Positions 1 to 20,676 of a stretch of DNA of 64,000 nt are shown in pieces. Position 1 is the stretch's first letter; the number at the start of each line of letters is the position of its first letter. The stretch comes from Ramlibacter sp. GTDB lineage: Bacteria > Pseudomonadota > Gammaproteobacteria > Burkholderiales > Burkholderiaceae_C. The DNA lies in the NCBI GenBank assembly GCA_030695945.1, contig JAUYOG010000022.1, positions 62,001 through 126,000 on the forward strand, in the 5' to 3' direction. The notes below the pieces were generated by a model. That model had not been told where the DNA came from and did no database searches. It was given only the letters and a program-made list of their open reading frames with translations. The translations under genes were made by a program, and so were the position numbers.

Positions 1-1145
1 ACCGCGCTGCGGCCCGCGCGCGTGCGTGCGATGATCGTCTTCATGATCTGCGCGGTGCCGTCACCGATCTGGAAGCCGAGCACGTCGCGCAGACGCTGCT
101 CCATCGGCCCGCGGTCGTAGCCGCCGTGGCCGAAGCTGAGGAGGCACTGGTGGATGGTGTCGTAGGCGAGCTTGGGCGCCCACCACTTGCACATCGCGGC
201 CTCGGCGCCGTGGGGCAGGCCCTGGTCCTTCAGCCACAGCGCCTGGTAGCACAGCAGCCGCGCGGCCTGAACCTGGGTCTCGAAATCGGCCAGCGGATGC
301 GATACACCCTGGAATGACGCCAGCGGCTTGCCGAAGGCCTCGCGCTGCGCGACGTAGGTCCACGACTCTTCCAGCGCCACGCTCGCCACGGCCAGCACCT
401 GCAGGCCGATGAGCGCGCGCGAAAAGTCGAAGCCCTGCATCACCTGCACGAAGCCGCGGTTCTCGTCGCCCAGGCGGTGCGAGACCGGCACGCGCACGTT
501 GTCGAAGAAAAGCGAGCCGCGGCCGATGGCGCGCTGGCCATGGCAGTCGAAGCGGCTGCGCGTGAGGCCGGGCGCGTCCCCCGGCACCAGCAAGGCCGTG
601 ACGCCGTGCGCACCCGATTCGGGCGTGCCGGTGCGGCCGAAGACGATGATCGCGTCGGCCTGGTCGGCGGCGGAAATCGACGTCTTCTCGCCGTTGATCA
701 CATATTCGTCGCCCTTGCGCTCCACGCGCAGCCGCAGGTTGGCGGCGTCCGATCCGCCCTGCGGTTCCGTGAGGGCGATGGCGACCAGCGCCTCGCCGCG
801 CGTGAGCTTCTGCAGCCAGGGGAGCGTGACCTCCGGCTGGCCGTATTGCGAGAGGATCTGGCCGTTCAGCGACGCGAGCAGGTTGATGTACGACAGGCTC
901 AGGTCGGCGCGCGCGATCTCCTCGTGGATGACGCCGGCGGCGAGCGTGCCCATGCCCTGCCCGCCCACGGCTTCGGGCAGTTCGGGCGCGATGAAGCCCA
1001 TCTCGCCCATCTCGCGCATCAGCGCCCTGTCCAGCACGCGCGTGCTGTCGCGCTCCAGGAAGCCCGGCGCGACGCGCTGCGTGGCGTAACGCCGGGCGTG
1101 TTCGGCCAGCGCCTGCAGCGTCTCGTCGATGTACGGGCTGCGCAT
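1..1145 (-). CDS. aliB: Cyclohexanecarboxyl-CoA dehydrogenase-like acyl-CoA dehydrogenase (AliB/BadJ type), 3' end outside window
   Basis: This is a flavin-dependent acyl-CoA dehydrogenase, expected to desaturate cyclohexanecarboxyl-CoA to cyclohex-1-ene-1-carboxyl-CoA. The frame is open from ATG at 1143-1145 (MRSPYIDE) to the left window edge, about 381 codons, so only the last few residues and the stop are missing. Visible family marks are the LTEPQGGSDAA segment in the middle and a C-terminal LSFGHGGYDRG followed by FQIGDGTAQIM, which resembles AliB of Rhodopseudomonas. It starts 4 nt after the badI stop, so it is co-transcribed with badH and badI. The substrate is inferred from this context; another alicyclic or aliphatic acyl-CoA remains possible. 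Confidence 0.75.
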   Translation of the reverse strand, partial: MRSPYIDETLQALAEHARRYATQRVAPGFLERDSTRVLDRALMREMGEMGFIAPELPEAVGGQGMGTLAAGVIHEEIARADLSLSYINLLASLNGQILSQYGQPEVTLPWLQKLTRGEALVAIALTEPQGGSDAANLRLRVERKGDEYVINGEKTSISAADQADAIIVFGRTGTPESGAHGVTALLVPGDAPGLTRSRFDCHGQRAIGRGSLFFDNVRVPVSHRLGDENRGFVQVMQGFDFSRALIGLQVLAVASVALEESWTYVAQREAFGKPLASFQGVSHPLADFETQVQAARLLCYQALWLKDQGLPHGAEAAMCKWWAPKLAYDTIHQCLLSFGHGGYDRGPMEQRLRDVLGFQIGDGTAQIMKTIIARTRAGRSA

Positions 1146-1149
1146 GGCG

Positions 1150-1932
1150 CTACTTCGCGAACTGGCGGAAGTCGGGCTTGCGCTTTTCCCCCAGCGCCTT
1201 CACGCCCTCGCGCGATTCATCGGTGTCGTAGTAAAGCTTGAGCGCGTACATCCCCATGCCCGCGATGCCGGCCTGGTGGGCCGTGTCCATGTTGAAGCTG
1301 CGCTTGGCGATAGCGAGCGCCGTCGGGCTCTTCTCGCAGATCTCCTCGGCCCATTGCTGCACCACGGTGTCCAGCTGGTCGGGCGGCACGCACACATTGG
1401 CCAGGCCCATCGCGACGGCCTCCTGGCCGGAATAGCGGCGGCACAGGTACCACATTTCGCGCGCCTTCTTCTCGCCCACCACGCGCGCCAGCAACGCCGT
1501 GCCGTAGCCCGGGTCCACCGAGCCCATCTTGGGGCCGACCTGGCCGAAGATGGCTTTTTCGGAGCAGATGGTCAGGTCGCAGATGGTGCACAGCACGTTG
1601 CCGCCGCCGATCGCGTAGCCCTGCACGCGCGCGATGACCGGCTTGGGCACGTCGCGGATGGCGGTGTGCAGTTCCTCCATCGGCAGGCCGATGGTGCCGC
1701 GCCCGTCGTAGTTGCCGTCGTGCGCCGACTGGTCGCCGCCGGTGCAGAACGCGCGGTCGCCCGCGCCGGCCAGCACGATGCAGCCGACTTCCCGGTCGTA
1801 GCCTGCCTTGTGCAAGGCCTTGATCAACTCGTCGCAGGTGGTGCCGCGGAACGCGTTCATCTTGTCGGGGCGGTTGATGGTGATCCACGCCACGCGGTTG
1901 CGTACTTCGTACAGGATGTCCTCGAATTGCAT
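1150..1932 (-). CDS. badI: 2-ketocyclohexanecarboxyl-CoA hydrolase BadI
   Basis: A 260-residue crotonase-fold enzyme that hydrolytically opens the ring of 2-ketocyclohexane-1-carboxyl-CoA to pimeloyl-CoA. The sequence is strikingly like BadI: it opens MQFEDILYEVRN, carries the NRPDKMNAFRG and CTGGDQSAHDGNYDGRG segments, the GYAIGGGNVL oxyanion-hole loop and the FGQVGPKMGSVDPGYG loop, with the C-terminal TAHQAGIAGMGMYALKLYYD stretch. The length equals the family norm. An AAGGAAA Shine-Dalgarno lies just upstream. It sits between badH and the aliB-like gene, the order expected of the alicyclic ring-cleavage module. Recognition is by remembered similarity, not by a search, but the match is very strong. 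Confidence 0.92.
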   Translation of the reverse strand: MQFEDILYEVRNRVAWITINRPDKMNAFRGTTCDELIKALHKAGYDREVGCIVLAGAGDRAFCTGGDQSAHDGNYDGRGTIGLPMEELHTAIRDVPKPVIARVQGYAIGGGNVLCTICDLTICSEKAIFGQVGPKMGSVDPGYGTALLARVVGEKKAREMWYLCRRYSGQEAVAMGLANVCVPPDQLDTVVQQWAEEICEKSPTALAIAKRSFNMDTAHQAGIAGMGMYALKLYYDTDESREGVKALGEKRKPDFRQFAK

Positions 1933-1959
1933 GATGTTTCCTTTGGTGCCTGGTGAGAT

Positions 1960-2727
1960 TCAGCCCGCCATCGTGAGGCCGCCCGAGACGCTGAGCACCT
2001 GGCCCGTGACGAAGGCGGCGTCGTCGCTCGCGAAAAAGAGAATGGCGCCCGGCAGGTCGTCGGCCTTGCCGATGCGGCCGAGCGGGATCGAGCGCACGAA
2101 GGCCTCGACCAGCTTCTCCGGGTTGCCCGCGCCCTTCTTGTAATCCTCGAAGAGCGCCGTATCCGTGGGGCCGGGGCACACGACGTTGGCGGTGATGTTG
2201 TGGCGCGAATGCTCGCGCGCGATGGTCTTGGAAAACCCGATCAACCCCGCCTTGCAGGCGGCGTAAACGGCTTCACCCGACGAGCCGACGCGCCCCGCGT
2301 CCGACGCGATGTTGACGATGCGGCCCTGGCGGCGCTCGATCATGCCCGGCAACACGGCGTGGTGCATGTGAAGCGCGCCGGTGAGGTTGATCGCGATGAT
2401 CTTCTCCCACTGCTCGGGCCGGGTCTTCATGAAAGGCGAGAAGACATCCCAGCCGGCGTTGTTCACGAGGATGTCGATGGGGCCCCACTGGCCGGTGACC
2501 TGCGCCACGGCAGCGTCCACGCTGGCGCGGCTGGTGATGTCGCATTCGACGGCGAGCGCGGCGCCGCCCTCCCCGGTGATGCGCTGCGCCACCGCCTGCG
2601 CCGCTTCGAGGTTGCGGTCCAGCACGGCGACGCGCGCGCCCTCCTGAGCGAAGCGCGCGCAGGTTGCGCCCCCGATGCCACCGCCGCCACCGGTGATGAC
2701 GGCCACCTTGTCCTGCAATCTGCCCAT
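1960..2727 (-). CDS. badH: 2-hydroxycyclohexanecarboxyl-CoA dehydrogenase BadH (SDR)
   Basis: A 255-residue short-chain dehydrogenase/reductase that oxidises 2-hydroxycyclohexanecarboxyl-CoA to the 2-keto ester with NAD+. It has the Rossmann motif TGGGGGIGG near residue 12, NNAGWDVF, the catalytic Ser (NIASDAGRVGSS) and YxxxK (YAACK), and ends TGQVLSVSGGLTMAG like known BadH. I start it at MGRLQDK (ATG 2725-2727) because AAGGAG stands 8 nt upstream and the resulting length equals the family; an ATG 48 nt further upstream would overlap the palindromic operator. It is the first gene of the leftward badH-badI-aliB operon and is divergent from the regulator at 2841. Confidence 0.9.
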   Translation of the reverse strand: MGRLQDKVAVITGGGGGIGGATCARFAQEGARVAVLDRNLEAAQAVAQRITGEGGAALAVECDITSRASVDAAVAQVTGQWGPIDILVNNAGWDVFSPFMKTRPEQWEKIIAINLTGALHMHHAVLPGMIERRQGRIVNIASDAGRVGSSGEAVYAACKAGLIGFSKTIAREHSRHNITANVVCPGPTDTALFEDYKKGAGNPEKLVEAFVRSIPLGRIGKADDLPGAILFFASDDAAFVTGQVLSVSGGLTMAG

Positions 2728-2764
2728 GGTCGCAACTCCTTGATGTCTGCCGCCATTTATGACA

Positions 2765-2777
2765 ATATGCGGCATAT
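2765..2777. promoter_or_regulatory. Perfect palindrome, probable BadR (MarR) operator
   Basis: ATATGC and GCATAT flank one central G, giving a perfect 13-bp inverted repeat in the 113-bp gap between divergent badH and the MarR gene. It is the most AT-rich part of the gap. Symmetric AT-rich sites of this size are typical MarR-family operators, and the position would allow control of both directions. Binding is inferred. Confidence 0.55.
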
Positions 2778-2840
2778 CTTAGGCGCGAACGCCGGGGTGC
2801 GCAAGTGAACTAAAGCACAGGGGAAAGGCAAGTCGTCCAT

Positions 2841-3332
2841 ATGGAAAGCATCGACGAGACACGCTCGGCCATCGCCAACCGGCTTTTTTTCCGGCTGTAT
2901 CAATGTGCCAACATGCTGCATAAAACGGGCACGCGGGCCATCGAGGAAGAAGGCCTCACCACCCAGCAGTGGGCGGTGCTTGGCGCCCTCTCCCGGCCCC
3001 AGGCGGGCGGCGCCATGAAGCTGGGCGAGCTTGCCCGCTACCTCATGGTGAGTCGGCAGAACCTGGCCGGCGTGATCGGCCGGCTGGAGCGCGACGGCCG
3101 CGTCGAGAGCGCGCCGGATCCGCAGGACGGCCGCTCACGGCTCATCCGCCTGACCCCGGGCGGGCGGCAGGTCTGGCAGCGCAAGGCGGTGCCCAAGATC
3201 CAGGACTACTACGAGCAGGCGCTCGAAGGCTTCTCGGTCAACGACATGGTGCACACCGTGCACTACCTGCTCAAGATCCTGGAGAACATGCAGAAGATCG
3301 ACACGCCGGACGGCGATGGCGAGGCGGAGTAA
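2841..3332 (+). CDS. badR: MarR-family regulator, BadR-like
   Basis: A 163-residue MarR-type winged-helix DNA-binding protein. The HTH lies around residues 60-85 (LGELARYLMVSRQNLAGVIGRLERDGRV) and the wing carries the usual DGRSRLIRLTPGG. Flanking helices would form the dimer interface. A GGGAAAGGCAAG region serves as ribosome binding site before ATG 2841. Divergence from badHI and a shared palindrome indicate that it regulates alicyclic-acid degradation; in Rhodopseudomonas the MarR protein BadR controls such genes in response to a pathway CoA intermediate. The specific effector here is not visible. The symbol rests on family plus context. Confidence 0.75.
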   Translation: MESIDETRSAIANRLFFRLYQCANMLHKTGTRAIEEEGLTTQQWAVLGALSRPQAGGAMKLGELARYLMVSRQNLAGVIGRLERDGRVESAPDPQDGRSRLIRLTPGGRQVWQRKAVPKIQDYYEQALEGFSVNDMVHTVHYLLKILENMQKIDTPDGDGEAE

Positions 3333-3344
3333 ATGGCTGTCACT

Positions 3345-3413: not shown

Positions 3414-3424
3414 GGCAACCGTTG

Positions 3425-4675
3425 TTACTTCCCGGTCTTCGCGAACTCGGCGGACTGCTCCTTCACCACCTTGTCCACCTCGTCGGTGTAGGCGGCCACC
3501 CAGTCGGATTGCGGCACCCACTTCGTGCCGTCCCACATGTCGATGCGGGTCTTGCCGCCGCCGCCGTGGTCCTTGGCGGTGACAGTCACGGGCGCGATGA
3601 AACCGTTGGCGTCGAAGCCGCGCAGGCTTTCCAGGCCGGCCTTGATCTTGGTGGGCGTCAGGGGCCACTTGTCCTTGCGGATCGCCTGCTTCACGCCTTC
3701 GAACATGACGGAATACATCGCCAGGCCGGTGTTGTAGTAGATGTCGTCCATGTGCTTCACGTCGCCGGCGCCCTTGCCCGCGCCGTAGACTTCCTTGGCG
3801 ATCTGCTGCATCAGCGGGTGTTCCTTGCCGCCAACCACGTTGGTGCCGCGCTTCAAGCCCTTGGCTTCGGCCGGCCCGATGTTGTTGATGTCCACCTCGT
3901 TGAGCCAGTTCACGACGATCAGCTTGTCCATGGAGATGCCGTTGCGCTTCATCTCCTTGGCCGCCACGACGTGCATCGCCGAGAGGTTCCAGCTGATCAT
4001 GTGGTCCGGATCGAACCGGCGGATCTGCGTCCACACAGCGGCCTGGTCACGCCCGGGCATCGGATTGGGGAACAGGCCCAGCTCGAAGCCTTCCTTGGCC
4101 GCCAGAGTCTTGAGCACCGGGATCGGCTCCTGGCCGAAGGCGTAGTCCGGGTAGATGAAGCCGATCTTCACGCCCTTCAGGTTGCCCTTGTGCAGCGTCT
4201 TGATGTAGGCGATGTCGTTGGCGACCTGGCCCCAGTAGGTCGGGCCGATCGGGAAGATCCACTTGAACACGTCGCCGTCCACCGCGTCGCCGCGGCCCAC
4301 GAACGACTGCAGCAGGATGTTGCCGTCGGCCATGATGCGCGGCAGCACCGCGCGCGAGACCGGCGTGGACAGCATGTCGAACATCATCACGCCTTCGCGC
4401 TTGAGCTTCTCGTAGCACTCGATGCCGCGCTGCGGCTCGTTGCCGTGGTCCTGCACCACGATCTCGATCGGGTGCCCTTCGATACCGCCCTTGGCGTTCA
4501 GCAACGTCGCGTAGTCCTTGGCCGCCTGCACGATCTGCGGGGTGACGAAGGTGTAGGCCTTGCTCAGGTCGTAACACAGGCCGAACTTGATGTTGTTGGA
4601 TGCCTGGGCCTGCGCGGCCCCGCCGCCCAGCAGCAGGGCCAGGCCGGCCAGCATCGATAGCGCTCTTCTCTTCAT
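3425..4675 (-). CDS. ABC transporter periplasmic substrate-binding protein (liv/HAAT type)
   Basis: A 416-residue periplasmic type-I binding protein of the branched-chain amino-acid transporter family. It starts MKRRALSMLAGLALLLGGGA and has a clear signal peptide ending AQAQA. The body has the family pattern of alternating Rossmann-like segments (IKFGLCYDLSKAYTF, NAKGGIEGHPIEIV, IGFIYPDYAFG). I chose ATG 4673-4675 because GAGGAG precedes it; a longer frame exists but lacks a ribosome site. It is the last gene of the operon, separated from livF by two strong hairpins. Liv-type binding proteins next to CoA ligases often bind aromatic or alicyclic carboxylates, so the ligand may be the acid degraded here; that is inference. 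Confidence 0.85.
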   Translation of the reverse strand: MKRRALSMLAGLALLLGGGAAQAQASNNIKFGLCYDLSKAYTFVTPQIVQAAKDYATLLNAKGGIEGHPIEIVVQDHGNEPQRGIECYEKLKREGVMMFDMLSTPVSRAVLPRIMADGNILLQSFVGRGDAVDGDVFKWIFPIGPTYWGQVANDIAYIKTLHKGNLKGVKIGFIYPDYAFGQEPIPVLKTLAAKEGFELGLFPNPMPGRDQAAVWTQIRRFDPDHMISWNLSAMHVVAAKEMKRNGISMDKLIVVNWLNEVDINNIGPAEAKGLKRGTNVVGGKEHPLMQQIAKEVYGAGKGAGDVKHMDDIYYNTGLAMYSVMFEGVKQAIRKDKWPLTPTKIKAGLESLRGFDANGFIAPVTVTAKDHGGGGKTRIDMWDGTKWVPQSDWVAAYTDEVDKVVKEQSAEFAKTGK

Positions 4676-4832: not shown

Positions 4833-4845
4833 GCACTGATCAAAC

Positions 4846-4880: not shown

Positions 4881-4884
4881 ACTC

Positions 4885-5703
4885 TCAACTCAGCCAGCGC
4901 TTGCGCCGGCTGTAATGCTTGATGTCGTGGAAATTCTTGCCTTCGGCGCCGCCCAGGTAGAACTCCTGGATGTCGGGGTTGCGCTTCATGGCTTCGGCGC
5001 TGTCGTGCATCACGATGCGCCCGTTCTCCATCAGGTAGCCGTGCGACACCACCTCCAGCGCGGCCATTGCGTTCTGCTCCACCAGCAGCACCGACAGGCC
5101 CTCCTCGCGGTTGATGCGCTGCACGATGTCGAAGATCTCCGCCACCAGGAAGGGCGCCAGCCCCAGGCTCGGCTCGTCGAGCATCAGCAGCTTGGGCTGC
5201 GTCATCAGCGCCCGGCCGATCGCCAGCATCTGCTGCTCCCCGCCGGAGAGGAAGCCCGATTCCGCCGAGCGCCGCTCCGCCAGCCGCGGGAAATAAGCGT
5301 AGACCCGGTCGCGCCGGCGCACGAGCTCGGCGGTGCTGCAGCCCGTGACGGCCGAGGCGGCCACCAGGTTCTCGTCGGGCGTGAGGTGCTCGAAGACGCG
5401 CCGGCCCTCCAGCACCTGCACGATGCCGTGCCTGACGCGTTGCTGCGGCATCAGGCCGTCGATGTCGCCGCCTTCGAAGCGCACCTCTCCGCGCGTGATC
5501 AGCCCGCGCTCGGGTTTGAGCAGGCCGCTGATCGCCTTGAGCGTCGTGCTCTTGCCCGCCCCGTTGGCGCCGAGCAGCGCCACCATGCCGCCCTTGGGAA
5601 CGGCGATCGACACGCCCTTGATCGCGAGGGCGACCTTGTCGTAGATCACCTCCACGTTGTTGAGCGTGAGGATGTCGGCGGCGGTGGCTGGCACTGTCGT
5701 CAT
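4885..5703 (-). CDS. livF: ABC transporter ATP-binding protein LivF-type
   Basis: A 272-residue cytoplasmic ATPase of a branched-chain amino-acid-type importer. It shows Walker A GANGAGKST near residue 46, the ABC signature LSGGEQQ near 153, and Walker B LLMLDEPSLGLAP, followed by the H-loop region. The C-terminus is about 30 residues longer than the shortest LivF proteins (GGAEGKNFHDIKHYSRRKRW), which is common in this group. ATG 5701-5703 follows the livM stop by 4 nt. It pairs with LivG to energise LivH/LivM. The transported substrate cannot be read from the ATPase. Confidence 0.88.
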   Translation of the reverse strand: MTTVPATAADILTLNNVEVIYDKVALAIKGVSIAVPKGGMVALLGANGAGKSTTLKAISGLLKPERGLITRGEVRFEGGDIDGLMPQQRVRHGIVQVLEGRRVFEHLTPDENLVAASAVTGCSTAELVRRRDRVYAYFPRLAERRSAESGFLSGGEQQMLAIGRALMTQPKLLMLDEPSLGLAPFLVAEIFDIVQRINREEGLSVLLVEQNAMAALEVVSHGYLMENGRIVMHDSAEAMKRNPDIQEFYLGGAEGKNFHDIKHYSRRKRWLS

Positions 5704-5707: not shown

Positions 5708-6781
5708 TCACTTCCTCGCGTAGCCGAACGGCCAGACCATCAGGTAGTTGCGCAGGTTGCCGTAGAGCTTGCCCAAGCCCATGGGCTCGATCAGCAGTAC
5801 GACGATGATGGCAGCGCCGTACACCATGTGGGGAATGTGCGCGAGGGCTTCCACCCCGATATCCATGCCCAGCGCCTTCGCGCCCCAGGCGATGAGCGCG
5901 TTCATCTGCCCGGGCAGCAGCAGGATGAATGCGGTGCCGAGGAAGCTGCCGATGATGCTGCCGAGGCCGCCCACGATCACCATCGCCAGCAGCTCGATCG
6001 ACACGTTTACCGCGAACTGCTCGGGCGTCACCGCATGGTAGAAGCCGAACACCAGCATGGCGCCGCTCACCCCGCCGATGAAGGCCGACGCGGCGAATGC
6101 CACGAGCTTGTAATAGAAGCTCTGCACGCCGATCACGGCCGCCGCGTAATCCTTCTCGCGCACGGCCACCAGCGCCCGCCCCAGGGCGCTGCGCCGCAGG
6201 TTCAGCATGAACAGCGCGACCAGGATCGTCCACGCCAGCACCACGTAATAGGTGCCGGCCTCGGACGTGATGGCCTGGCCGAGCAGCTTCATCGGCGGCG
6301 CCTGCAGCGTGGCGGACACGCCGCCGCTAATCGCAGGCACGTGCGAGATCACCCAGTCCATCACGAATTGCAGCGCGAGCGTGGACAGGGCGAGGTACAG
6401 GCCCTTGACCCGCAAGGCCGCGAAGGCGAAGACGACGCCCACCACCGTGGCGGTGAGGCCGCCGAGGACGATGGCGATCTCCCACGGCACGCCGTGACGC
6501 GTCGCGTGCACCGACGCATAGGCGCCGATGGCCATGATCGCCGCGTAGCCGAAGTGGAACTGCCCCGCCCAGCCGAGGATCAGGTTGAGGCCGAGCACCG
6601 CGCTGGTCCAGATGAGCCAGGGGCGGATGTAGCTCGTGAGCGCCAGCGAGCTGAAGATCCAGGGTGCGGCCAGGGCGATGGCGAACACCACGAACATCGC
6701 GTTGCGCTCGAACGGGATAGGGAACAGCGACCGGTCGGCCTGGTAGTTGGTGTGGAAGATGCCTGCGCGCCGGTAGAACAT
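5708..6781 (-). CDS. livM: ABC transporter permease LivM-type
   Basis: A 357-residue inner-membrane permease. From residue 25 it is a series of hydrophobic segments (FVVFAIALAAPWIF, LILGWAGQFHFGYAAIMAIGAYAS, LGGLTATVVGVVFAFAALRVKGLYLALSTLALQ), with the EAA-like loop near SALGRALVAVREKDYAAAVIG. The start at ATG 6779-6781 (MFYRRAGIF) leaves a 2-nt gap to the livH stop; upstream in-frame sequence belongs to another frame of livH. It forms the translocation channel with LivH. Confidence 0.88.
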   Translation of the reverse strand: MFYRRAGIFHTNYQADRSLFPIPFERNAMFVVFAIALAAPWIFSSLALTSYIRPWLIWTSAVLGLNLILGWAGQFHFGYAAIMAIGAYASVHATRHGVPWEIAIVLGGLTATVVGVVFAFAALRVKGLYLALSTLALQFVMDWVISHVPAISGGVSATLQAPPMKLLGQAITSEAGTYYVVLAWTILVALFMLNLRRSALGRALVAVREKDYAAAVIGVQSFYYKLVAFAASAFIGGVSGAMLVFGFYHAVTPEQFAVNVSIELLAMVIVGGLGSIIGSFLGTAFILLLPGQMNALIAWGAKALGMDIGVEALAHIPHMVYGAAIIVVLLIEPMGLGKLYGNLRNYLMVWPFGYARK

Positions 6782-6783
6782 CG

Positions 6784-7671
6784 CTAGATCCTTTCGATGT
6801 CGTGCCGGCCGAACAGGCCGTGCGGGCGGATCATGATGGTCAGGATCAGCACCGCGGCCACCACCAGTTCGCGCGTGCCCCCGCCCAGGAGCGGATCGAG
6901 GTAGCCCGAGGCGACGTTCTCCAGGATGCCGAGCAGCAGGCCCGCCAGCATCGCGCCGCCGATGCTGTCCAGCCCGCCGAGCACGCCGACCGTGATGCCC
7001 TTGAGCAGCAGCATCGACAGCGACTGGTCCACCGTCTGCACCGAGCCCCACAGGACGCCGGCGGCGGTGGCTGCCACCGCGGACAGGGCCCAGGAGAGCG
7101 CCACGCCACGCTCGACCGAAATGCCCACCGACCAGGACGCGGTGTAGTCATCGGCAATCGCGCGCAGCACCACACCCATGCGGGTGCGGAAGAAGAACAT
7201 GAACACGCCGAACAGCACCATCGTCACCACGGCGCCGATGGCGTAGGCGCGGTTCACCAGCAGCGGCCCCAGGAACAGCGGCGAATCGCTGATGCCCAGC
7301 GGCATGTTGCGGCCGCTGCCGCCCCAGATCGTGAGCGCCGTGGCGCGAATGAAGATGTCGATGCCCAGCGTCATCATCAGGATCATCACGATAGGCCGGC
7401 CCGCGAGCCGTCGCAGGGCGATGCGCTCGATGGCCATGCCGATAACGAACATCGACACGATCGCCAGCGGGATCGCCGCCCAGATCGAGATGCCCAGCTT
7501 GCCTGCGAAGGCCAGCACCAGGTACGGCCCCAGCATGGTGAGCGCGCCCTGGGCGAGGTTGGGCACCGACGATGACTTGTAGATCAGCACGATGCCCATC
7601 GCGACCAGCGCGTACATGAGGCCCGCGAGCCCGCCGTTCACCGCCAGTTCGAGGAAGTACATGATGTCCAT
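6784..7671 (-). CDS. livH: ABC transporter permease LivH-type
   Basis: A 295-residue inner-membrane permease with about eight hydrophobic stretches. Family segments include GLAGLMYALVAMGIVLIYKSS, VPNLAQGALTMLGPYLV, and the coupling loop RTRMGVVLRAIADDYTAS that contacts the ATPases. It ends IMIRPHGLFGRHDIERI, the usual LivH tail. The start at 7671 is 3 nt from the stop of the preceding ligase gene; an in-frame ATG three codons later is also possible. It partners LivM in the importer encoded by this operon. Confidence 0.88.
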   Translation of the reverse strand: MDIMYFLELAVNGGLAGLMYALVAMGIVLIYKSSSVPNLAQGALTMLGPYLVLAFAGKLGISIWAAIPLAIVSMFVIGMAIERIALRRLAGRPIVMILMMTLGIDIFIRATALTIWGGSGRNMPLGISDSPLFLGPLLVNRAYAIGAVVTMVLFGVFMFFFRTRMGVVLRAIADDYTASWSVGISVERGVALSWALSAVAATAAGVLWGSVQTVDQSLSMLLLKGITVGVLGGLDSIGGAMLAGLLLGILENVASGYLDPLLGGGTRELVVAAVLILTIMIRPHGLFGRHDIERI

Positions 7672-13877: not shown

Positions 13878-15460
13878 CCGCAAACGCCAATCCCGAATTC
13901 CAGGCCAATGAGGCCGCTTACCAGGCGCTGCTGGCGTCCCTCATGGAGGCGCGCCGGCAGGCGTGGCAGGGAGGCCCGCCGGCCACGCACGAGAGGCACC
14001 GCCAGCGCGGCCGCCTGCTGGTGCGCGAGCGCATCGAGGTGCTGCTCGACCTCGGCTCGCCTTTCCTCGAGATCGCGGAACTGGCGGGCGAAGGCATGTA
14101 CGAGGGCGTGGCCCCCGGCGCGGGCATCGTCACGGGCGTCGGGCTGATCCAGGGCCGCGCGTGCATGGTGATCGCCAACGATGCCACGGTGAAAGGTGGC
14201 ACGTATTTCGGTATGACGTGCAGGAAGCATGTGCGGGCGCAGCGTTTCGCATGGCAGCACCGGCTGCCGTGCGTCACGCTGGTGGACAGCGGCGGCGCCT
14301 TCCTGCCGGACCAGGCCAACATCTTCCCGGACGAGGGCCTGTTCGGCAGCATCTTCCACAACCAGGTCGGCATGTCGGCCGACGGCATCGCCCAGATCGC
14401 CGTGGTGCTGGGCGCATGCACCGCGGGCGGGGCCTACATCCCGGCGCTGTGCGACGAAGTCGTGATCGTGCGCGGCAAGGGCTTCCTGTTCCTCGGCGGG
14501 CCGCAGCTGGTGCAGGCGGCCACCGGCGAGATTGTCGACGCCGAGCAGCTCGGCGGCGCCGACATGCACGGCCGCGTTAGCGGTGTCACCGACCACATCG
14601 CGGAGGACGACGGGCAGGCCATCGCGATCGCGCGCCGGCTCGTCGGCGAGCTGCCGCCGATGCCAGCGCCGCTGCGCGACCGGGCGGCGCCCCGTGAACC
14701 GGCGCGGCCCATCACCGACATCTACGGCCTGGTGCAGCGCGATTCGCGCAAGCCCACGCCGACGCGCGAGGTGCTGCAATGCCTGCTGGACGGCGGCGCG
14801 CTCTCGGAGTTCAAGGCCGAGTACGGCGACACCTTGATCACCGGTTTCGCGCGCATCGGCGGCTGGCAGGTGGGCGTGCTGGCCAACAACGGCGTGCTGT
14901 TCGTGGACAGCGCGCTGAAGGCCACGCACTTCATCGACCTGTGCTGCAAGCGCAACGTGCCGCTCTTGTTCCTGGCGGACGTGTCCGGCTTCATGGTCGG
15001 CAAGGAGGCCGAGCAGGCCGGCATTGCCAAGGCGGGCGCGAAGTTCATCACCGCGATGAGTTCGGCGGCGGTGCCCAAGTTCACGATCATCACGGGCGGC
15101 GCGTACGGCGCGGGGTACCTGGCGATGTGCGGACGGGCCTTCAAGCCGAACGCCATGTTCATGTGGCCCAACAGCCGCGCGGCCATCATGGGCCCGGACC
15201 AGGCGGCGACGACGCTCGCACTGGTCAAGCGCCAGAACTTGAAGCCCGGCGAGTCATGGAGCGCCGGGGACGAGGAGTCTTTCAAGGCGCCCATCCGCAA
15301 GCAGTACGAGGACTTTGCCGCCGCGCGCAACTACGCCCGCAACCTGTGGGTGGACGGCATCATCGACCCCGCCGAAACGCGCGAGACGATGACGCTGCTG
15401 CTCGACCTCGCGGCGCGCGTCCCCGCGCCCCCCACGCGCTTCGGCGTATTCCGGATGTAA
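13874..15460 (+). CDS. Acyl-CoA carboxylase carboxyltransferase (beta) subunit
   Basis: A 528-residue carboxyltransferase of the methylcrotonyl/geranyl-CoA carboxylase type, transferring carboxyl from biotin to an enoyl-CoA. It contains VDSGGAFLPDQANIFPDEG, ACTAGGAYIPALCDE and, in the second half, the biotin-binding GAYGAGYLAMCGRAF. The tail MWPNSRAAIMGPDQAATTLA is typical. It starts at ATG 13874, overlapping the ligase stop by 4 nt, so translation is coupled. It pairs with the biotin-carboxylase subunit that follows after an unusual 146-nt gap. Propionyl-CoA-type subunits are less similar; methylcrotonyl versus geranyl versus a novel branched enoyl-CoA cannot be settled by eye. Confidence 0.83.
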   Translation: MTANANPEFQANEAAYQALLASLMEARRQAWQGGPPATHERHRQRGRLLVRERIEVLLDLGSPFLEIAELAGEGMYEGVAPGAGIVTGVGLIQGRACMVIANDATVKGGTYFGMTCRKHVRAQRFAWQHRLPCVTLVDSGGAFLPDQANIFPDEGLFGSIFHNQVGMSADGIAQIAVVLGACTAGGAYIPALCDEVVIVRGKGFLFLGGPQLVQAATGEIVDAEQLGGADMHGRVSGVTDHIAEDDGQAIAIARRLVGELPPMPAPLRDRAAPREPARPITDIYGLVQRDSRKPTPTREVLQCLLDGGALSEFKAEYGDTLITGFARIGGWQVGVLANNGVLFVDSALKATHFIDLCCKRNVPLLFLADVSGFMVGKEAEQAGIAKAGAKFITAMSSAAVPKFTIITGGAYGAGYLAMCGRAFKPNAMFMWPNSRAAIMGPDQAATTLALVKRQNLKPGESWSAGDEESFKAPIRKQYEDFAAARNYARNLWVDGIIDPAETRETMTLLLDLAARVPAPPTRFGVFRM

Positions 15461-15467
15461 GGCGCGT

Positions 15468-15614
15468 ATGTACAGCAAGATCCTCATCGCCAACCGCGGC
15501 GCTCGCGCCTTAGGCGCGGGGGTGCGCTCATATGCGAAGCATGTGACGCGCACACCAAATCGCCGGGCACGCGCAGCGTGCGGCGATTTCACCTCGGGCA
15601 CCGACAATGTTTAA
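15468..15614 (+). pseudogene. Duplicated 5' end of the biotin-carboxylase gene, now a 48-codon leader frame
   Basis: ATG 15468 begins MYSKILIANRG, a second copy of the biotin-carboxylase N-terminus, written in the GC-rich codons usual here. After eleven codons the similarity stops and the frame runs through hairpin-forming sequence to TAA 15612-15614. It thus ends 5 nt beyond the A of the functional start codon at 15607. The functional copy (MFKKILIANRGEIACRI) uses AT-richer codons (ATA CTT ATT). It may be a relic of an insertion that displaced the old start, or a translated leader peptide that couples to the downstream gene. Confidence 0.6.
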
Positions 15615-15648
15615 GAAGATACTTATTGCCAACCGAGGTGAAATCGCC
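15504..15648 (+). repeat. Cluster of hairpins with mutually exclusive pairings at the biotin-carboxylase start
   Basis: Several stems are visible. CGCGCC/GGCGCG (15504-15518, loop TTA). An imperfect stem TGCGC...GCGCA over about 15520-15553. AAATCGCC/GGCGATTT with inner GCACGC/GCGTGC (15557-15589). A perfect 16-bp pair between 15582-15597 and 15633-15648 that encloses the ATG at 15607. The segment 15582-15589 takes part in both of the last two, so they cannot form together. Either a remnant of an inserted palindromic element or an RNA switch controlling translation of the alpha subunit. Confidence 0.6.
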
Positions 15649-17598
15649 TGCCGCATCGCCCGCACGCTGCGCCGCATGGGCATCGCCGCCGCCACCGTCC
15701 ATTCCAGCGCCGATGCGCAGGCGCTGCACGTGCGCGAGATCGGCGAGTCGGCGCTCATCGGCGGCGGCCCGGCCCGCGAAAGCTACCTGGACATCGACAA
15801 GGTCGTCGCGGCCGCGCAGCGCGTGGGTGCACAGGCCATCCACCCGGGTTTCGGTTTTCTCTCCGAGAACGCTGCCTTCGCGCAGCGCTGCGCCGATGCC
15901 GGCATCGCCTTCATCGGGCCGGCGCCGGAATCGCTCATCTTGTTCGGCGACAAGGCCGCCGCCAAGCGGCTCGCCCGCTCGCTGGACATCCCCACCGCGG
16001 CCGGGCTGGAGGAGCCGAGCGACGACGTGGGGGCATTGCTCGCGGCCGTGGCCACCCTGCCCCTGCCCTACATCCTCAAGGCGGTGGCCGGCGGCGGCGG
16101 CAAGGCGATGCGCGTGATCCGCGAACCGGGCCAGGCCCGCGCCGCGATCGAGGCGGCGATCCGCGAGGGGCGTTCGTCCTTCGGCGACGGGCGCCTGATC
16201 GCCGAGCGCTACCTGCCCTCGGTGCGGCACATCGAAGTACAGATCCTCGGCGACGGGGCCGGCAACGTGGTGCACCTGTTCGACCGCGAGTGCAGCCTGC
16301 AGCGTCGCTTCCAGAAAGTGGTGGAAGAAGCGCCGGTGACGAGCATCGCCCAACCTCTGCGCGAACGGCTGTGGGCGCATGCGGTGGCGCTGGGCCGCGC
16401 CGCCCGCTACCTCGGCCTGGGTACCGTCGAATTCGCGGTGGCCGGCGACGAAGCCGTGTTCCTGGAAGTCAATCCGCGCCTGCAGGTGGAGCATCCCGTC
16501 ACCGAAGCCGTCACCGGCCTGGACCTCGTGCAGCTGCAGGTCGAAACCGTTGCGCGGCGGCGCCTCCCCTTCACGCAGCTGCACTTGCCCGCGCCGCATA
16601 GCGTGGCCGTGCAGGCGCGGCTCTACGCCGAGGACGCGCAGCGCGGGTTCCTGCCCTCCACGGGCCGCATCATGCAATTCGACGTGCCGGCCACGGTGCG
16701 CGTAGACGCCGGCGTGGCCGCGGGCTGCGAGATCACGTCGCACTACGACCCGATGATCGCCAAGTTGATCGCCCACGGGGCCAGCCGCGCCGAAGCCCTG
16801 GCGCAGCTGCGCGACGCGCTGGCGCAGGCCACGGTGCTCGGCGTCACCAGCAATCGCAGTTTCCTGATGGCGTTGCTGGGCGACGCCGCCGTGCAGGCCA
16901 ACGAGGTGGGCACGGAATACATCGACGGCTGGCTCGCGCGGCAGCCGCCCGCCCAGGAACCGCCGAAGCACGTGGCCGTGCTCGCCGCCTTCTGGCTCAT
17001 GCAACAACGCGCGGAAGCGGCCGGCAGCACGCACGCGAGTTGGGGCGATGCCCCGCTGACGGGATGGCGGCTGCAACGCGGTCCGCCGCAGCGGCTGCCG
17101 GCGCATACCTGCCGGGCCGTCGGCGCGGGCGGGTCCTGGCGGATCGGGTTCGGCCGGGAGCGCGGGGTGATGGCGATCCGCGTGGAGGACGAGGTCTTCG
17201 ACGTCGCACTGCCGGCGCGGGGCGGGGACCCGCAAGCCTTCACGATCGGCGGTTGCGTGGTCCAGCTGCGTGCAAGGTGCGAGGGCCCCCAGGTCCACGC
17301 CCAGGTGGCAGGACACGAGTTGTCGCTGGAACTGGCGCCGCTGCACAAGGCGGCCGGCGGTTCGGTTGCGGCGCTGCAGGGCCTCGTGCGTGCGCCGATG
17401 ATGGGGATCGTGATCGGCGTGGACGCGGCATGCGGGCAGCAGGTGGCCGCGGGCGATCGCCTGGGGACGCTGGAATCCATGAAAATGGAGATGGCGATCA
17501 CTGCGCCCGTGGCCGGCGTCGTGGCCTGGGTGGGCTGCGAGGCCCGCGGCAAGGTCGAGCGCCACCAGGACCTGTTCCGCATCGAACCCACCGCCTGA
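15607..17598 (+). CDS. Acyl-CoA carboxylase biotin-carboxylase/BCCP (alpha) subunit
   Basis: A 663-residue biotin-dependent carboxylase alpha chain. It holds an N-terminal biotin-carboxylase domain (MFKKILIANRGEIACRI; ATP-grasp loop KAVAGGGGKAMR near 160; EVNPRLQVEHPVTE near 290), a linker, and a C-terminal BCCP domain with the biotinylation motif ESMKMEM (Lys about 626). It carboxylates biotin with bicarbonate and ATP for the subunit at 13874. The chosen ATG lies in the loop of a 16-bp inverted repeat; no ordinary Shine-Dalgarno is seen. The first codons are richer in A/T than the rest of the gene, suggesting that the 5' end was rebuilt. Confidence 0.85.
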   Translation: MFKKILIANRGEIACRIARTLRRMGIAAATVHSSADAQALHVREIGESALIGGGPARESYLDIDKVVAAAQRVGAQAIHPGFGFLSENAAFAQRCADAGIAFIGPAPESLILFGDKAAAKRLARSLDIPTAAGLEEPSDDVGALLAAVATLPLPYILKAVAGGGGKAMRVIREPGQARAAIEAAIREGRSSFGDGRLIAERYLPSVRHIEVQILGDGAGNVVHLFDRECSLQRRFQKVVEEAPVTSIAQPLRERLWAHAVALGRAARYLGLGTVEFAVAGDEAVFLEVNPRLQVEHPVTEAVTGLDLVQLQVETVARRRLPFTQLHLPAPHSVAVQARLYAEDAQRGFLPSTGRIMQFDVPATVRVDAGVAAGCEITSHYDPMIAKLIAHGASRAEALAQLRDALAQATVLGVTSNRSFLMALLGDAAVQANEVGTEYIDGWLARQPPAQEPPKHVAVLAAFWLMQQRAEAAGSTHASWGDAPLTGWRLQRGPPQRLPAHTCRAVGAGGSWRIGFGRERGVMAIRVEDEVFDVALPARGGDPQAFTIGGCVVQLRARCEGPQVHAQVAGHELSLELAPLHKAAGGSVAALQGLVRAPMMGIVIGVDAACGQQVAAGDRLGTLESMKMEMAITAPVAGVVAWVGCEARGKVERHQDLFRIEPTA

Positions 17599-17609
17599 AA
17601 GGCAACGCC

Positions 17610-18575
17610 ATGGCCGCCCTGCCCGCCCGCGTCGAGATCCACGAGGAAGGCCCGCGCGAGGGCTTCCAGATCGAGCCGCCGGGTTTCTCGATCGCCGACC
17701 GTGCCGCGCTGGTCGAAGCGCTCGCGGACAGCGGGCTGACGCGGATCCAGGTCGCCTCCTTCGTCAATCCCGCCCGCGTGCCGCAGATGGCCGACGCGGC
17801 CGAGCTCTTCGCGGCGATCCGCAGGAAGCCCGGCGTGCGCTACACGGCGCTGTGGCTGAACGAGCAGGGCTTCGACCGCGCCCGAGCCACCGCCGCGGTA
17901 GACCTGGCCGGCACGCTCTATTTCTACGCGTCGGACGCGTTCAGTCGCCAGAACAACGGGCGTGGCGCCGCCGAGCAGGCGCAGGGGCAGCGCGGCTGGG
18001 TCGCCCGCTACCGCGCCGAGGGCTTGGCCATCGAATCGGCCTATGTCATGACCGCGTTCGGCTGCAACCTGGAGGGCGCCATCAGCGAGGAGCGCGTGGC
18101 CGAGTCGCTGCGGTTCATCGCGCAGCTGCAGCAAGATGAAGGCTTTCGCCTGCCCGCCGTGTACCTCGCGGACACCGTCGGCTGGGCCGAGCCGCGCATG
18201 ATCCGGCGCCGCATCGACCTCGTGCGCGACTTGCTGCCCGGCGTGCGCGTCGGCCTGCACCTGCACGACACGCGCGGCCTGGGCATGGCCAACGCGCTGG
18301 CGGCGCTGGAACACGGCGTGGACCTGTTCGATGCGTCCGTGGCCGGGCTCGGCGGCTGCCCGTTCTGCGGCCACGCCCATGGTGGCGCGGCCGGGAACAT
18401 CTGCACCGAGGACCTCGCATTCCTGTGCGAGCAGATGGGCATCGCCACCGGCATCGACCTGCCCCGGCTGCTCGACGCAGCCCGCCTTGCCGAGCGCATC
18501 ATCGGGCGTCGCCTGGACGGCAAGCTGATGCACAGCGGGCTGCCGCAAGCGCAGCTGCCGGAGGCGGCCCGATGA
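17610..18575 (+). CDS. HMG-CoA lyase-like enzyme (divergent)
   Basis: A 321-residue TIM-barrel aldol lyase of the HMG-CoA lyase family, expected to split a 3-hydroxy-3-substituted glutaryl-CoA-type ester into two products. The metal-binding HLHDTRG pair of His and the GLGGCPF...GNICTED signature are present. Two departures are visible. The N-terminal motif is GPREGFQIE where HMG-CoA lyases have PRDG, replacing the metal-ligand Asp by Glu. The signature loop between CP and GN is about four residues longer (CPFCGHAHGGAAGN). It therefore may act on a bulkier substrate. AAGG precedes ATG 17610; its stop overlaps the next gene (ATGA). Confidence 0.75.
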   Translation: MAALPARVEIHEEGPREGFQIEPPGFSIADRAALVEALADSGLTRIQVASFVNPARVPQMADAAELFAAIRRKPGVRYTALWLNEQGFDRARATAAVDLAGTLYFYASDAFSRQNNGRGAAEQAQGQRGWVARYRAEGLAIESAYVMTAFGCNLEGAISEERVAESLRFIAQLQQDEGFRLPAVYLADTVGWAEPRMIRRRIDLVRDLLPGVRVGLHLHDTRGLGMANALAALEHGVDLFDASVAGLGGCPFCGHAHGGAAGNICTEDLAFLCEQMGIATGIDLPRLLDAARLAERIIGRRLDGKLMHSGLPQAQLPEAAR

Positions 18576-20083
18576 AGCCGGCGAACGCGCAGTCGATGGA
18601 CCTGGGCGCGCTGTTTCGCGAGCGCGTGCGGATGCAGCCCGCCGCGCCGGCGCTGGCCGGCGTCGGGGACGCCGTGCTGACCTATGCGCAACTCGCCGAT
18701 CGCGTCGCGCGTCTCGCGGGGGGCTTGCGCGCGCTCGGCCTGCGTCGCGGCGACCGCGTGGCCATGTGGTCCGAGAACCGCATGGAGTACATCGAACTCG
18801 AACTGGCTGCCGCGCACCTCGGCCTCATCGTCGCGTGCCTGAACTGGCGCCTGAGCGACGATGAGCAGCGCCATTGCATCCGGCTGGTAGAGCCGGAGCT
18901 GGTGGTCGTGTCGCCGCGCTACGCGGAATCGCTTCGACGCGTCGGCGCCGCCACGGCGCAGGTGCTGGAACTGGGGGCCACGTTCGACGCCTGGCGCGAC
19001 GCCTGTGCGCCCCTCCCGCCCGACGAATCCGTGGATCCGGAGGACGGGCTCGTGATCCTCTACACCAGCGGCACCACGGGCCTTCCCAAGGGCGCCCTGG
19101 TCAGCCAGCGCGCGATGGCGGCCCGCGCGCTGGTCTTCGCGGCCGACTACGGCATTCGCGGGGACGACAGCTTCATCGCGTGGTCGCCGCTCTTCCACAT
19201 GGCCGCGACGGACCACTCGCTGGCCACCTTGTTGCTGGGCGGCAAGGTGCTGGTGTGCGACGGGCTCGACCTGCCGCTGGTCTGCGACTGGCTGGCGCGG
19301 GAGCCGGTCGGATGGCTGCTGGCGATGCCCGGCATGATCGAAGCCTTCATCGACGCGTTGCGAGCAGCCGGCACGCGGCCGCGCTCGGTGCGCCTGGTTG
19401 GCGCGATGGCCGACCTGGTGCCCCACCAGCAGATCACCGAGCTCTGCGAGCTGGTGGGGGCGCCCTACTTCAACTCCTTCGGCTCGACCGAGACGGGCCT
19501 GCCGCCGGTTTCAGGCGGCACGCTCGACCCCGCCCGGGGACCGCTGTCGCTCGCCAAGCGGCAGTCATCGTGGTGCCTCATCCGCCTTGTCGACGAGGCC
19601 GGCAACGAGGTGCCCGAGGGAACGCCCGGCGAGATGACGGTGCGCGGCCCGACGCTCTTTTCGGGCTACTGGGGCAACGAACGGGCCAATGCCGAGTCGT
19701 TCCAGGGCGGCTGGTTCCACATGGGCGACGTGTTCGTGCGCCACCCCGACGGCTCGCTCGACTTCGTGGACCGGCTGAAGTACTTGATCAAGTCCGGCGG
19801 CGAGAACATCTACCCGGCCGAGATCGAGCGTGTCCTGCTGGCCCACCCCGGCGTGCGCGACGCCGCCGTCGTGCGCCGCCGCGATGCGCGCTGGGGCGAG
19901 GTGCCGGTGGCGTTCGTTGCCGCGGACGAATCCGCCTTCGATGCCGCGGCGCTGGCGGCGTTCTGCCGCGAGCGGCTGGCGGCCTACAAGGTACCCCGAG
20001 AATTCCGCCGCATCGAGGTGGCCGACCTGCCGCGCAGCAGCACCGGCAAGATCCAGCGGCACGAGCTGGAAAAACGGGTCTAG
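18572..20083 (+). CDS. AMP-dependent acyl-CoA synthetase
   Basis: A 503-residue adenylate-forming ligase of the medium-chain/FadD3-like class. It shows LYTSGTTGLPKGALVSQ near residue 165, NSFGSTETG near 300, HMGDVFVRHPDGSLDFVDR near 385 and the catalytic-Lys motif STGKIQRHEL near the end. It overlaps the lyase stop by 4 nt (ATGA). It is the last gene of the carboxylase operon and is the third CoA ligase within 12 kb, implying several related acids or successive activation steps. Substrate is not readable from sequence alone. Its TAG overlaps the stop of the convergent TetR gene. Confidence 0.82.
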   Translation: MKPANAQSMDLGALFRERVRMQPAAPALAGVGDAVLTYAQLADRVARLAGGLRALGLRRGDRVAMWSENRMEYIELELAAAHLGLIVACLNWRLSDDEQRHCIRLVEPELVVVSPRYAESLRRVGAATAQVLELGATFDAWRDACAPLPPDESVDPEDGLVILYTSGTTGLPKGALVSQRAMAARALVFAADYGIRGDDSFIAWSPLFHMAATDHSLATLLLGGKVLVCDGLDLPLVCDWLAREPVGWLLAMPGMIEAFIDALRAAGTRPRSVRLVGAMADLVPHQQITELCELVGAPYFNSFGSTETGLPPVSGGTLDPARGPLSLAKRQSSWCLIRLVDEAGNEVPEGTPGEMTVRGPTLFSGYWGNERANAESFQGGWFHMGDVFVRHPDGSLDFVDRLKYLIKSGGENIYPAEIERVLLAHPGVRDAAVVRRRDARWGEVPVAFVAADESAFDAAALAAFCRERLAAYKVPREFRRIEVADLPRSSTGKIQRHELEKRV

Positions 20084-20676
20084 CCCGCCACGCCGAGCAT
20101 GCGCCTGGCCAGGCGCTGGTAGATGCGGATGAGGCGCTCCTGGCGCAGGCGCCCGTCATCGCGGTACCAGGTGCTGATGCCGGTGAGCAGGGACAGCAGG
20201 GCGAGCGTGGTGATGCGCACGTCGTCCAGCTTCCACAGGCCGGATTTCTGCCCGTCCGAAAGGATCGCCCTCACGTGCGCCTCGTAGTCCTTGCGCAGGC
20301 CGATGATGCGGCGGTACTGCTCGGGCGTGAGGCTTCGCAGTTCCATGTTGCCGATGAAGGTCTCCTCCTTGCGGGCCGTGTGCCACTCGATGTGGAAGCG
20401 CACGAAGCCCAGCAGCCGCTCCATCGGGTCGCGCAGCCCTGTCATCCGCTGGGCGAAGTCCTGCAGCAGCTCCAGCATGATGTCCTCGAGCAGGCTGGCA
20501 AGGAACTCCTGCTTCTGGGGCACGTGGTTGTACAGCGAGCCCAGGCGCAGGTTGGCGTCCGCGGCGAGGTCGCGCAGGTTCATCGCCTCGAAGCCGTGGC
20601 GATAGATGCGCGCGATTGCCGCCTTGCGGATCGTCCGCATCGTGTCCGCGCCGCTCACCCCCGCCGGTCTGCCCAT
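20080..20676 (-). CDS. TetR-family transcriptional regulator
   Basis: A 198-residue TetR-type repressor. The N-terminal HTH spans about residues 15-55 (IYRHGFEAMNLRDLAADANLRLGSLYNHVPQKQEFLASLL), and the rest is a helical ligand domain. I start at MGRPAGVSG (ATG 20674-20676) because GGGGG lies just upstream and the HTH spacing is normal; a start 69 nt earlier is open but less likely. It converges with the acyl-CoA synthetase with overlapping stops. By position it probably controls the carboxylase and transporter operons in response to an acyl-CoA, but no operator could be assigned firmly. Confidence 0.8.
   Translation of the reverse strand: MGRPAGVSGADTMRTIRKAAIARIYRHGFEAMNLRDLAADANLRLGSLYNHVPQKQEFLASLLEDIMLELLQDFAQRMTGLRDPMERLLGFVRFHIEWHTARKEETFIGNMELRSLTPEQYRRIIGLRKDYEAHVRAILSDGQKSGLWKLDDVRITTLALLSLLTGISTWYRDDGRLRQERLIRIYQRLARRMLGVAG

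Follow-up and report, generated by a model that had tools for sequence, protein, structure and literature searches.

The window analysed here is a 64,000-nucleotide stretch of a Ramlibacter sp. draft genome (3.75 Mb in 73 contigs, 79% complete; G000:C20:62001-126000, where G, C and L denote genomes, contigs and loci), and eighteen genes were assigned by gene calls and family searches within its positions 1-20676. They comprise a ring-opening half, with the AliB, BadI and BadH enzymes, and a carboxylase half, in which an acyl-CoA dehydrogenase (ACAD) of the isovaleryl-CoA dehydrogenase (IVD) type and a crotonase accompany acyl-CoA ligases, a two-subunit biotin-dependent carboxylase and an enzyme resembling 3-hydroxy-3-methylglutaryl-CoA (HMG-CoA) lyase (HMGL-like). 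The two halves belong together. On balance, gene content and analogy with known pathways suggest that they probably form a single pathway, for cyclohexylacetate or a closely related alicyclic acetic acid. This acid would gain a ring carboxyl group and then be passed on to BadI. We propose more tentatively, with slightly less than even confidence, that biotin-dependent carboxylation of a ring carbon, a new class of HMGL-like lyase and opening by BadI would constitute a new oxygen-independent route for even-chain naphthenic acids.

Cyclohexyl acids with even side chains end, after β-oxidation, at cyclohexylacetate, whose β-carbon is a ring carbon that β-oxidation cannot oxidise further. This oil-type acid is likely out of reach of ordinary fatty-acid breakdown. 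In Arthrobacter, another lyase route leads to cyclohexanone. Degraders of cyclohexylacetate are known, and PMC4547698 calls the pathway in Cupriavidus KUA-1 largely unknown. If the proposed route is correct, it names genes for cyclohexylacetate breakdown without an oxygen requirement, explains why one locus combines cyclohexanecarboxylate enzymes with a set of the methylcrotonyl-CoA carboxylase (MCC) type, and predicts a carboxylase acting on a ring carbon.

Co-occurrence and linkage of the two halves

A preliminary description of the locus had recommended a co-occurrence search of badHI with the carboxylase/lyase set across genomes; for BadI and the carboxylase it was run in a family sample of 299 genomes searched by profile and identity for BadI and the carboxyltransferase (CT), scoring at most eight (BadI) and four (CT) first-look candidates per genome. 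BadI exceeds its cut-off in all 10 genomes with a CT at least 60% identical to that of the window, versus 36 of the 289 others (Fisher p = 3e-9, not corrected for relatedness; six genera), and the three genomes with a CT of at least 81% identity give p = 0.003 on their own. Genera g1, g29 and g96 contain some members with both BadI and the CT and others with neither. A CT match at E 1e-180 is present in 200 of the 299 genomes and reaches 60% identity in only 10. The order-level sample yields matches at E 1e-200 in three of 399 genomes, the window genome included, which is too few for counting.

A CT-alignment scan of named genomes yielded 80 loci, with genes called by a GC3-based gene finder that mis-set some starts. 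Twelve loci in 11 genomes have a CT of at least 73% identity and a whole or partial core of ACAD, PaaK-like ligase, CT, biotin carboxylase (BC), HMGL-like enzyme and TetR regulator. Cultured bacteria, such as Ottowia thiooxydans DSM 14619, are among the carriers of the carboxylase genes. When 47 of the 80 loci were screened along with the window genome (47 genomes), BadI was over its cut-off in 10 of 12 genomes (these 11 and the window genome) versus 14 of the 35 others. As defined by the tree, the CT clade comprises 15 genomes, with G377, G400 and G203 added to the 12 and with G070 and G071 placed by identity; G203 is sister to the clade (support 0.905). BadI occurs in 14 of the 15, counting the frameshifted copy that adjoins the cluster in Ramlibacter terrae (G071). 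In seven of them (G000, G061, G062, G067, G071, G203 and G377), and in several gene orders, BadI and cluster genes stand on the same contig; in G061 this contig holds the dehydrogenase, the crotonase and the start of the PaaK-like gene, and the CT lies on another. Co-occurrence and linkage thereby support the connection between the halves that the preliminary description had drawn.

BadI without BadH

The known substrate of BadI is 2-oxocyclohexanecarboxyl-CoA, as given in PMC9795900. G377, a complete single-contig genome from the same genus as the window genome, has two BadI genes. The first sits in an ordinary aliB-badI-badH-marR-liv cluster 0.8 Mb from the carboxylase cluster. The second, 87% identical to the window BadI (532 bits), belongs to a run of crotonase, DctP, a likely DctQ, DctM, FAD dehydrogenase and BadI that is divergent from PaaK-CT-BC-HMGL-Lig3, Lig3 being an AMP-forming ligase, and neither aliB nor badH lies beside it in this stretch (L195). 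In the stretch around this second BadI (L195 4675-11180), a PF00890 flavoprotein scores 529 of 900 bits to a cyclohexene-carboxylate dehydrogenase model, and the flavoprotein and tripartite ATP-independent periplasmic (TRAP) transporter genes replace the IVD-type gene and the Liv importer.

The Afipia metagenome-assembled genome (MAG) G067 shows a comparable arrangement, with crotonase, ACAD and BadI divergent from Liv-TetR-PaaK-CT-BC-HMGL and neither AliB nor BadH adjoining BadI. G061 and G063 have the order AliB-BadI-MarR with the badH slot empty (badI and marR are 177 and 130 bases apart). When the 15 clade genomes were searched for BadH, the enzyme was over its cut-off in 10 and present as a copy cut at a contig end in G070, with no match at E 1e-85 in G061, G063, G066 and G067; the BadH of G400, which the gene finder had fused with its neighbour, was recovered by this search. 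Three genomes (G061, G063 and G067) therefore combine BadI and carboxylase genes with no detectable BadH. Because BadI occurs in carboxylase clusters lacking AliB and BadH, and in genomes where BadH is undetected, it likely acts last, after carboxylation and the lyase, and not first. If BadH does not make the substrate of BadI, the carboxylase and lyase could supply it.

A proposed route from cyclohexylacetate to pimeloyl-CoA

Cyclohexylacetate would be taken up by the Liv importer and converted to its CoA ester by the PaaK-like ligase (12516..13877, plus strand; 207 bits to the phenylacetate-CoA ligase 2y4o, with a start codon) or by the ligase embedded among the importer genes. The IVD-type ACAD (10420..11562, minus strand) would desaturate cyclohexylacetyl-CoA to cyclohexylideneacetyl-CoA, a β,β-disubstituted enoyl-CoA like 3-methylcrotonyl-CoA. 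The carboxylase, consisting of the CT β-subunit (13874..15460, plus strand) and an α-subunit carrying BC and the biotin carboxyl carrier protein (15607..17598, plus strand), would add CO2 at the γ-carbon, which is ring C2, to form 2-carboxycyclohexylideneacetyl-CoA. Hydration by the crotonase (11664..12452, minus strand) would give a ring analogue of HMG-CoA, from which the HMGL-like enzyme (17610..18575, plus strand) would release acetyl-CoA and 2-oxocyclohexane-1-carboxylate, the cyclic counterpart of acetoacetate. Lig3 (18572..20083, plus strand; PF00501 and PF13193) would then activate 2-oxocyclohexanecarboxylate, and BadI (1150..1932, minus strand) would hydrolyse 2-oxocyclohexanecarboxyl-CoA to pimeloyl-CoA. 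Each catabolic member of the carboxylase half would thus act once, in the order ligase, dehydrogenase, carboxylase, crotonase, lyase and second ligase, followed by BadI. Cyclohexanecarboxylate would be handled by AliB and BadH, which would let the locus deal with cyclohexyl acids of odd as well as even chain length.

Carboxylation and transfer to BadI are steps that we infer from gene content and by analogy, and we likewise expect that HMG-CoA-lyase chemistry on a γ-carboxylated, hydrated, β-branched acyl-CoA would yield acetyl-CoA and a β-keto acid. The proposed products of carboxylation and hydration exist in anaerobic naphthalene degradation (PMC11659651, PMC12016498), where an IVD-like dehydrogenase makes such an exocyclic double bond (PMC11659651). 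New here would be that a biotin enzyme adds the carboxyl group and that an HMGL-like lyase and BadI finish the pathway. No described pathway joining the ring-opening and carboxylase halves turned up in the open-access literature searched, leaving the same statement in the preliminary description uncontradicted.

Features of the carboxylase-half enzymes

The ACAD scores 507 bits to the bacterial isovaleryl-CoA dehydrogenase 4o5m versus 300 to the best non-IVD entry. It contains LDYER, and we take the Glu of LDxER to be a mark of the IVD type. Its JK loop (YEIGGGTSE) is of the Gly/Ala type, an IVD-type criterion in PMC11659651. Against enoyl-CoA hydratase models the crotonase reaches 243 bits at best, above no model's cut-off, and it scores 184 bits to 3r0o. 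It carries Glu in both GGGLE and GLPE, presumably the two catalytic glutamates.

Compared with PDB entries, the CT scores 611 bits to AccD1, 583 to PaMCC and 409 to geranyl-CoA carboxylase (GCC). In our alignment, in which the published residue number is not matched to the chain, it holds an MCC-type Phe (position 157) within an MCC-like insertion; Phe and a 3-residue insertion mark MCC, and Gly marks GCC, in Jurado et al. (PMC4673880). Tree and sequence signature place it in a distinct clade of the MCC type. Positions 146, 368, 369, 415 and 416 read D-A-D-Y-L, with A-D and Y-L instead of the Q-N (368-369) and N-Y (415-416) of solved MCC. Across 132 rows from fetched loci, some genes being counted twice, here and in the tree, where reached via two loci, D/E-A-D-Y-L occurs in 66 of the 79 rows with at least 60% identity and D at 369 in all 79, and Q-N and N-Y are found in 39 of the 53 rows below 60%. 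At L028 (G047:C21), two tandem clade CTs have the MCC pocket Phe replaced by Gly or Ala. The α-subunit matches PF00289, PF02786, PF02785 and PF00364, with ESMKM at residues 623-627.

The HMGL-like enzyme (PF00682) falls just below the HMG-CoA lyase cut-off (NF004283, 240 versus 246 bits). GPREGFQIE replaces the canonical GPRDGLQNE, and the loop past the conserved Cys is longer. All 31 lyase rows with at least 46% identity (the window included and two genes represented twice) show the GPREGFQ motif, which is absent from the 10 rows below 41%. R16, H217/H219, C250 and N263 are invariant relative to the canonical L011 enzyme; we take this Arg, HxH, Cys and Asn to form the HMG-CoA lyase active site. 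Judged by their sequences, the carboxylase and the lyase are specialised.

Weighing of alternative explanations

A number of observations weigh against a single cyclohexylacetate pathway. BadI does not depend on the carboxylase set, which is lacking in 36 of the 46 BadI genomes of the family sample, and conversely Bradyrhizobium G066 has the carboxylase set with no BadI match at E 1e-40. BadI and the CT lie on separate contigs in the drafts G063-G065 and G068-G070 and 2.5 Mb apart in G400 (two contigs). Of the 35 non-clade genomes screened, 14 have BadI over its cut-off; the 12 alphaproteobacterial ones among them contribute only one, with three more below the cut-off. On the single Roseobacter plasmid inspected, PaaK-CT-BC-HMGL is accompanied by no BadI-level match within 25 kb. 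A Lig3 relative was not found in the fetched stretches of L036, L038, L039, L041, L043 and L087, nor were HMGL and PaaK in those of L037 and L087. The absence of BadH could be a MAG gap, or another short-chain dehydrogenase/reductase may serve, and G061 and G063 retain AliB despite their undetected BadH. Scanning for the BadR operator pattern gave no site in the gap between the crotonase and PaaK-like genes. Finally, the CT retains the Phe that, by the rule of PMC4673880 and in our own alignment, limits the MCC pocket, so room for a ring is only presumed.

Separation in G400 and in the six drafts, together with separate regulators (MarR and TetR), would fit two independent modules, one for cyclohexanecarboxylate and the other, having nothing to do with BadI, for a branched acyclic acid, and the same can be said of the 11 of 12 alphaproteobacterial relatives without BadI over its cut-off and of the Roseobacter plasmid stretch. 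Because these alphaproteobacterial relatives mostly lack BadI, the wider CT clade has other substrates. For the window locus, however, we consider two unconnected modules unlikely, given the co-occurrence counts (10/10 versus 36/289) and the fact that the carboxylase clusters of G377 and G067 contain BadI, with a different gene order in G203. A different connection, put forward in the preliminary description, has ring opening come first: AliB, BadH and BadI would turn methylcyclohexanecarboxylate into methylpimeloyl-CoA, whose methyl branch would then be stripped off by the carboxylase, hydratase and lyase. The joining of the halves and the MCC logic (MCC-type CT, IVD-type ACAD, HMGL-like lyase) stand, all the enzymes are in one locus, and AliB is retained in G061 and G063; the step order and the substrate do not hold up as well. 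That description had 3- or 5-methylpimeloyl-CoA requiring the second set. By our derivation only the 3-methyl compound, from 2-methylcyclohexanecarboxylate, would need it, and the 3-methyl and 4-methyl isomers of the ring acid need no carboxylase; the 4-methyl acid would proceed through 5-methylpimeloyl-CoA to 3-methylglutaryl-CoA. Moreover, this order predicts BadI in the company of AliB and BadH. G377 and G067 run counter to that prediction, as do G061 and G063 in part, AliB being kept there, and BadH was not found in G061, G063 and G067. Ring opening ahead of methyl removal is accordingly quite unlikely, and the earlier interpretation as a whole is partly supported.

The carboxylated, hydrated intermediate of the cyclohexylacetate route might instead be cut within the ring (C1-C2) to 3-oxoazeloyl-CoA by a ThnQS-like lyase, leaving BadI unused. 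The genome does have an AtuA-like gene, but this single match (PF07287) is on G000:C53, outside the window, and a ThnQS-like lyase was lowered as a candidate for this reason. BadI is retained and even duplicated (G377), and the bond that HMG-CoA lyases cleave adjoins the thioester side chain, all of which makes ring cleavage of this type improbable. The AtuA-like gene (G000:C53:282133-283461, 486 bits) adjoins a crotonase-like gene.

Since a single cluster holds an MCC-type CT, an IVD-type ACAD, an HMGL-like enzyme and an AMP ligase, the carboxylase half could be taken for ordinary leucine/isovalerate catabolism under a TetR regulator. The window set differs from the leucine set, because a separate liu-type cluster and a second IVD-type gene exist elsewhere in the genome. 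The former, at G000:C2, comprises a CT (cut by the contig end), a dehydrogenase, a crotonase, a carboxylase α-subunit and a canonical HMG-CoA lyase (452 bits, cut-off 246); the latter, at G000:C69, is 63% identical to the window ACAD. The clade-specific changes in the window CT and HMGL-like enzyme point the same way, as does the contrast between the 200 of 299 family genomes with a CT match and the 10 at 60% identity or more. We rejected leucine catabolism on these grounds as highly improbable.

A geranyl/citronellyl route was rejected since the CT is of the MCC type and a GCC-type set sits elsewhere, at G000:C48, where the CT scores 562 bits to GCC versus 445 to MCC. This set (L009 5861-17725) is accompanied by two ACAD-like genes and, on the opposite strand, by genes resembling MeaB and methylmalonyl-CoA mutase, labels guessed from sequence starts. 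Sterol side-chain carboxylation was also rejected, the words carboxylase and biotin being absent from the main text of PMC11061730.

Relation to known systems

The ring-opening half resembles the bad-ali pathway of Rhodopseudomonas palustris and Aromatoleum sp. CIB, as presented in PMC9795900, in having AliB, BadH, BadI and a divergent MarR gene in the BadR position. It differs in that no AliA is found over the cut-off in the window genome and in that a carboxylase/lyase set and a liv importer are attached; some relatives of the cluster, furthermore, keep BadI without detectable BadH. The carboxylase half shares with the liu leucine/isovalerate pathway an IVD-type ACAD, an MCC-type carboxylase, a crotonase, an HMGL-like lyase, a ligase and the same step chemistry. 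However, its CT has A-D and Y-L where the liu type has Q-N and N-Y, its lyase has GPREGFQ and the longer loop past the Cys, and it is tied to BadI. The geranyl-CoA (atu) pathway likewise involves γ-carboxylation of a 3-substituted enoyl-CoA followed by a hydratase and a lyase, but the window CT favours MCC-type entries (583-611 bits) over GCC (409) and keeps the MCC-type Phe and insertion.

The thn pathway for the second ring of naphthalene, as described in PMC11659651 and PMC12016498, has a dehydrogenase 41% identical to IVD and yields pimeloyl-CoA and acetyl-CoA. There the ring carboxyl is left over from the first ring, whereas in the proposed route the biotin carboxylase would add it; ring opening there is attributed to an AtuA-like lyase, whereas here an HMGL-like lyase and BadI would finish. 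The Glu of ThnO sits in the JK loop, unlike that of IVD, and the window cluster has no paired AtuA-like lyase genes (ThnQS). The review PMC12016498, citing unpublished results, describes ThnQS as an AtuA-like lyase that forms 3-oxoazeloyl-CoA by cutting the ring and draws a comparison with LiuE for this reaction. If the proposed route is true, the tertiary-alcohol problem, which according to the naphthalene field is solved there by the AtuA-like lyase, would have a second solution. The mrc system of Castellaniella defragrans (PMC4109377) also applies BadH/BadI-like enzymes to a substituted cyclohexane ring; it is proposed for perillyl-CoA, and the word carboxylase is absent from the main text.

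Gene layout, regulation and further clusters

The gene content given in the preliminary description is confirmed. AliB (1..1145, minus strand; TIGR03207 703 bits, cut-off 575), BadI (TIGR03210 524 bits, cut-off 468) and BadH (1960..2727, minus strand; TIGR03206 457 bits, cut-off 431) all exceed the curated NCBIfam cut-offs for the bad-ali family, and a MarR gene (2841..3332, plus strand; PF12802) occupies the BadR position, divergent from them. The 3' end of aliB is cut by the window edge; the complete protein has 384 residues (fetched stretch L008), its final codons falling just beyond. The liv-type importer, IVD-like dehydrogenase, two-subunit carboxylase and TetR regulator are present by family searches, the crotonase has both presumed catalytic glutamates, and the lyase is atypical in its motif and score. 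All three CoA ligases are there, one of them PaaK-like. The layout can be refined in that the crotonase and IVD-like genes share a minus-strand run with the importer, divergent from the carboxylase genes.

This run consists of the crotonase, the ACAD, a LivG-type ATPase (9584..10351; PF00005, PF12399), the AMP-forming ligase Lig1 (7675..9597; PF00501), LivH-type (6784..7671) and LivM-type (5708..6781) permeases (both PF02653), a LivF-type ATPase (4885..5703; PF00005) and a periplasmic binding protein (3425..4675; PF13458). The model closest to Lig1, which lies between LivH and LivG, is FadD11 (NF038343), at 299 bits far below the cut-off of 950. The plus strand carries the PaaK-like ligase, CT, BC, HMGL-like enzyme and Lig3, whose closest PDB entry is feruloyl-CoA synthetase (240 bits), and the TetR gene (20080..20676, minus strand; PF17932) is convergent with them. 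TetR relatives lie near carboxylase genes in loci L035-L043, L087, L192, L195 and L198, and MarR relatives (50-84% identity) adjoin badI in other genomes. Directly past the CT stop, MYSKILIANRG is legible in a relic of a BC start, which with an insert of ~117 bp fills 15461..15606. The α-subunit is 67% identical to its Ramlibacter BP03 counterpart, versus 87% for the CT, and looks as if it had been exchanged.

The BadR operator CAAN4TTG occurs at 2733, in the BadH-MarR gap, and at three sites in total in 21.5 kb; CAATNNATTG with one mismatch occurs 8 times versus 9.9 expected. Common BadR control of both halves was considered less likely, since the crotonase/PaaK gap has no operator. The cyclohexanecarboxylate-CoA ligase AliA was not found over its cut-off in the 79% complete genome (best 220 bits versus 792).

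Further along the window are a glycosyl hydrolase family 8 protein (22801-24138), downstream of the cluster, and a second acyl-CoA cluster (44822-50532) with a 3-hydroxyacyl-CoA dehydrogenase, a crotonase, an APH-family protein and an acyl-CoA dehydrogenase. In other genomes, a PaaK-CT-BC-HMGL cassette is carried on a Roseobacter plasmid, that of Sulfitobacter sp. BSw21498 (L240), and lyase matches at E 1e-50 appear in 47 plasmid records, some of which may lie outside the GPREGFQ subfamily. Comamonadaceae possess a sister cluster (L026, most of L044-L057, and L239) of AliB-like gene, crotonase, CT, BC and HMGL, often beside a liu-like set. Its AliB-like proteins are 50-57% identical (548 versus 575 bits in L026), and on Polaromonas JS666 plasmid 2 (L239) it also includes dienoyl-CoA reductase and thiolase genes. 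By its gene content, this sister cluster likely represents another alicyclic route.

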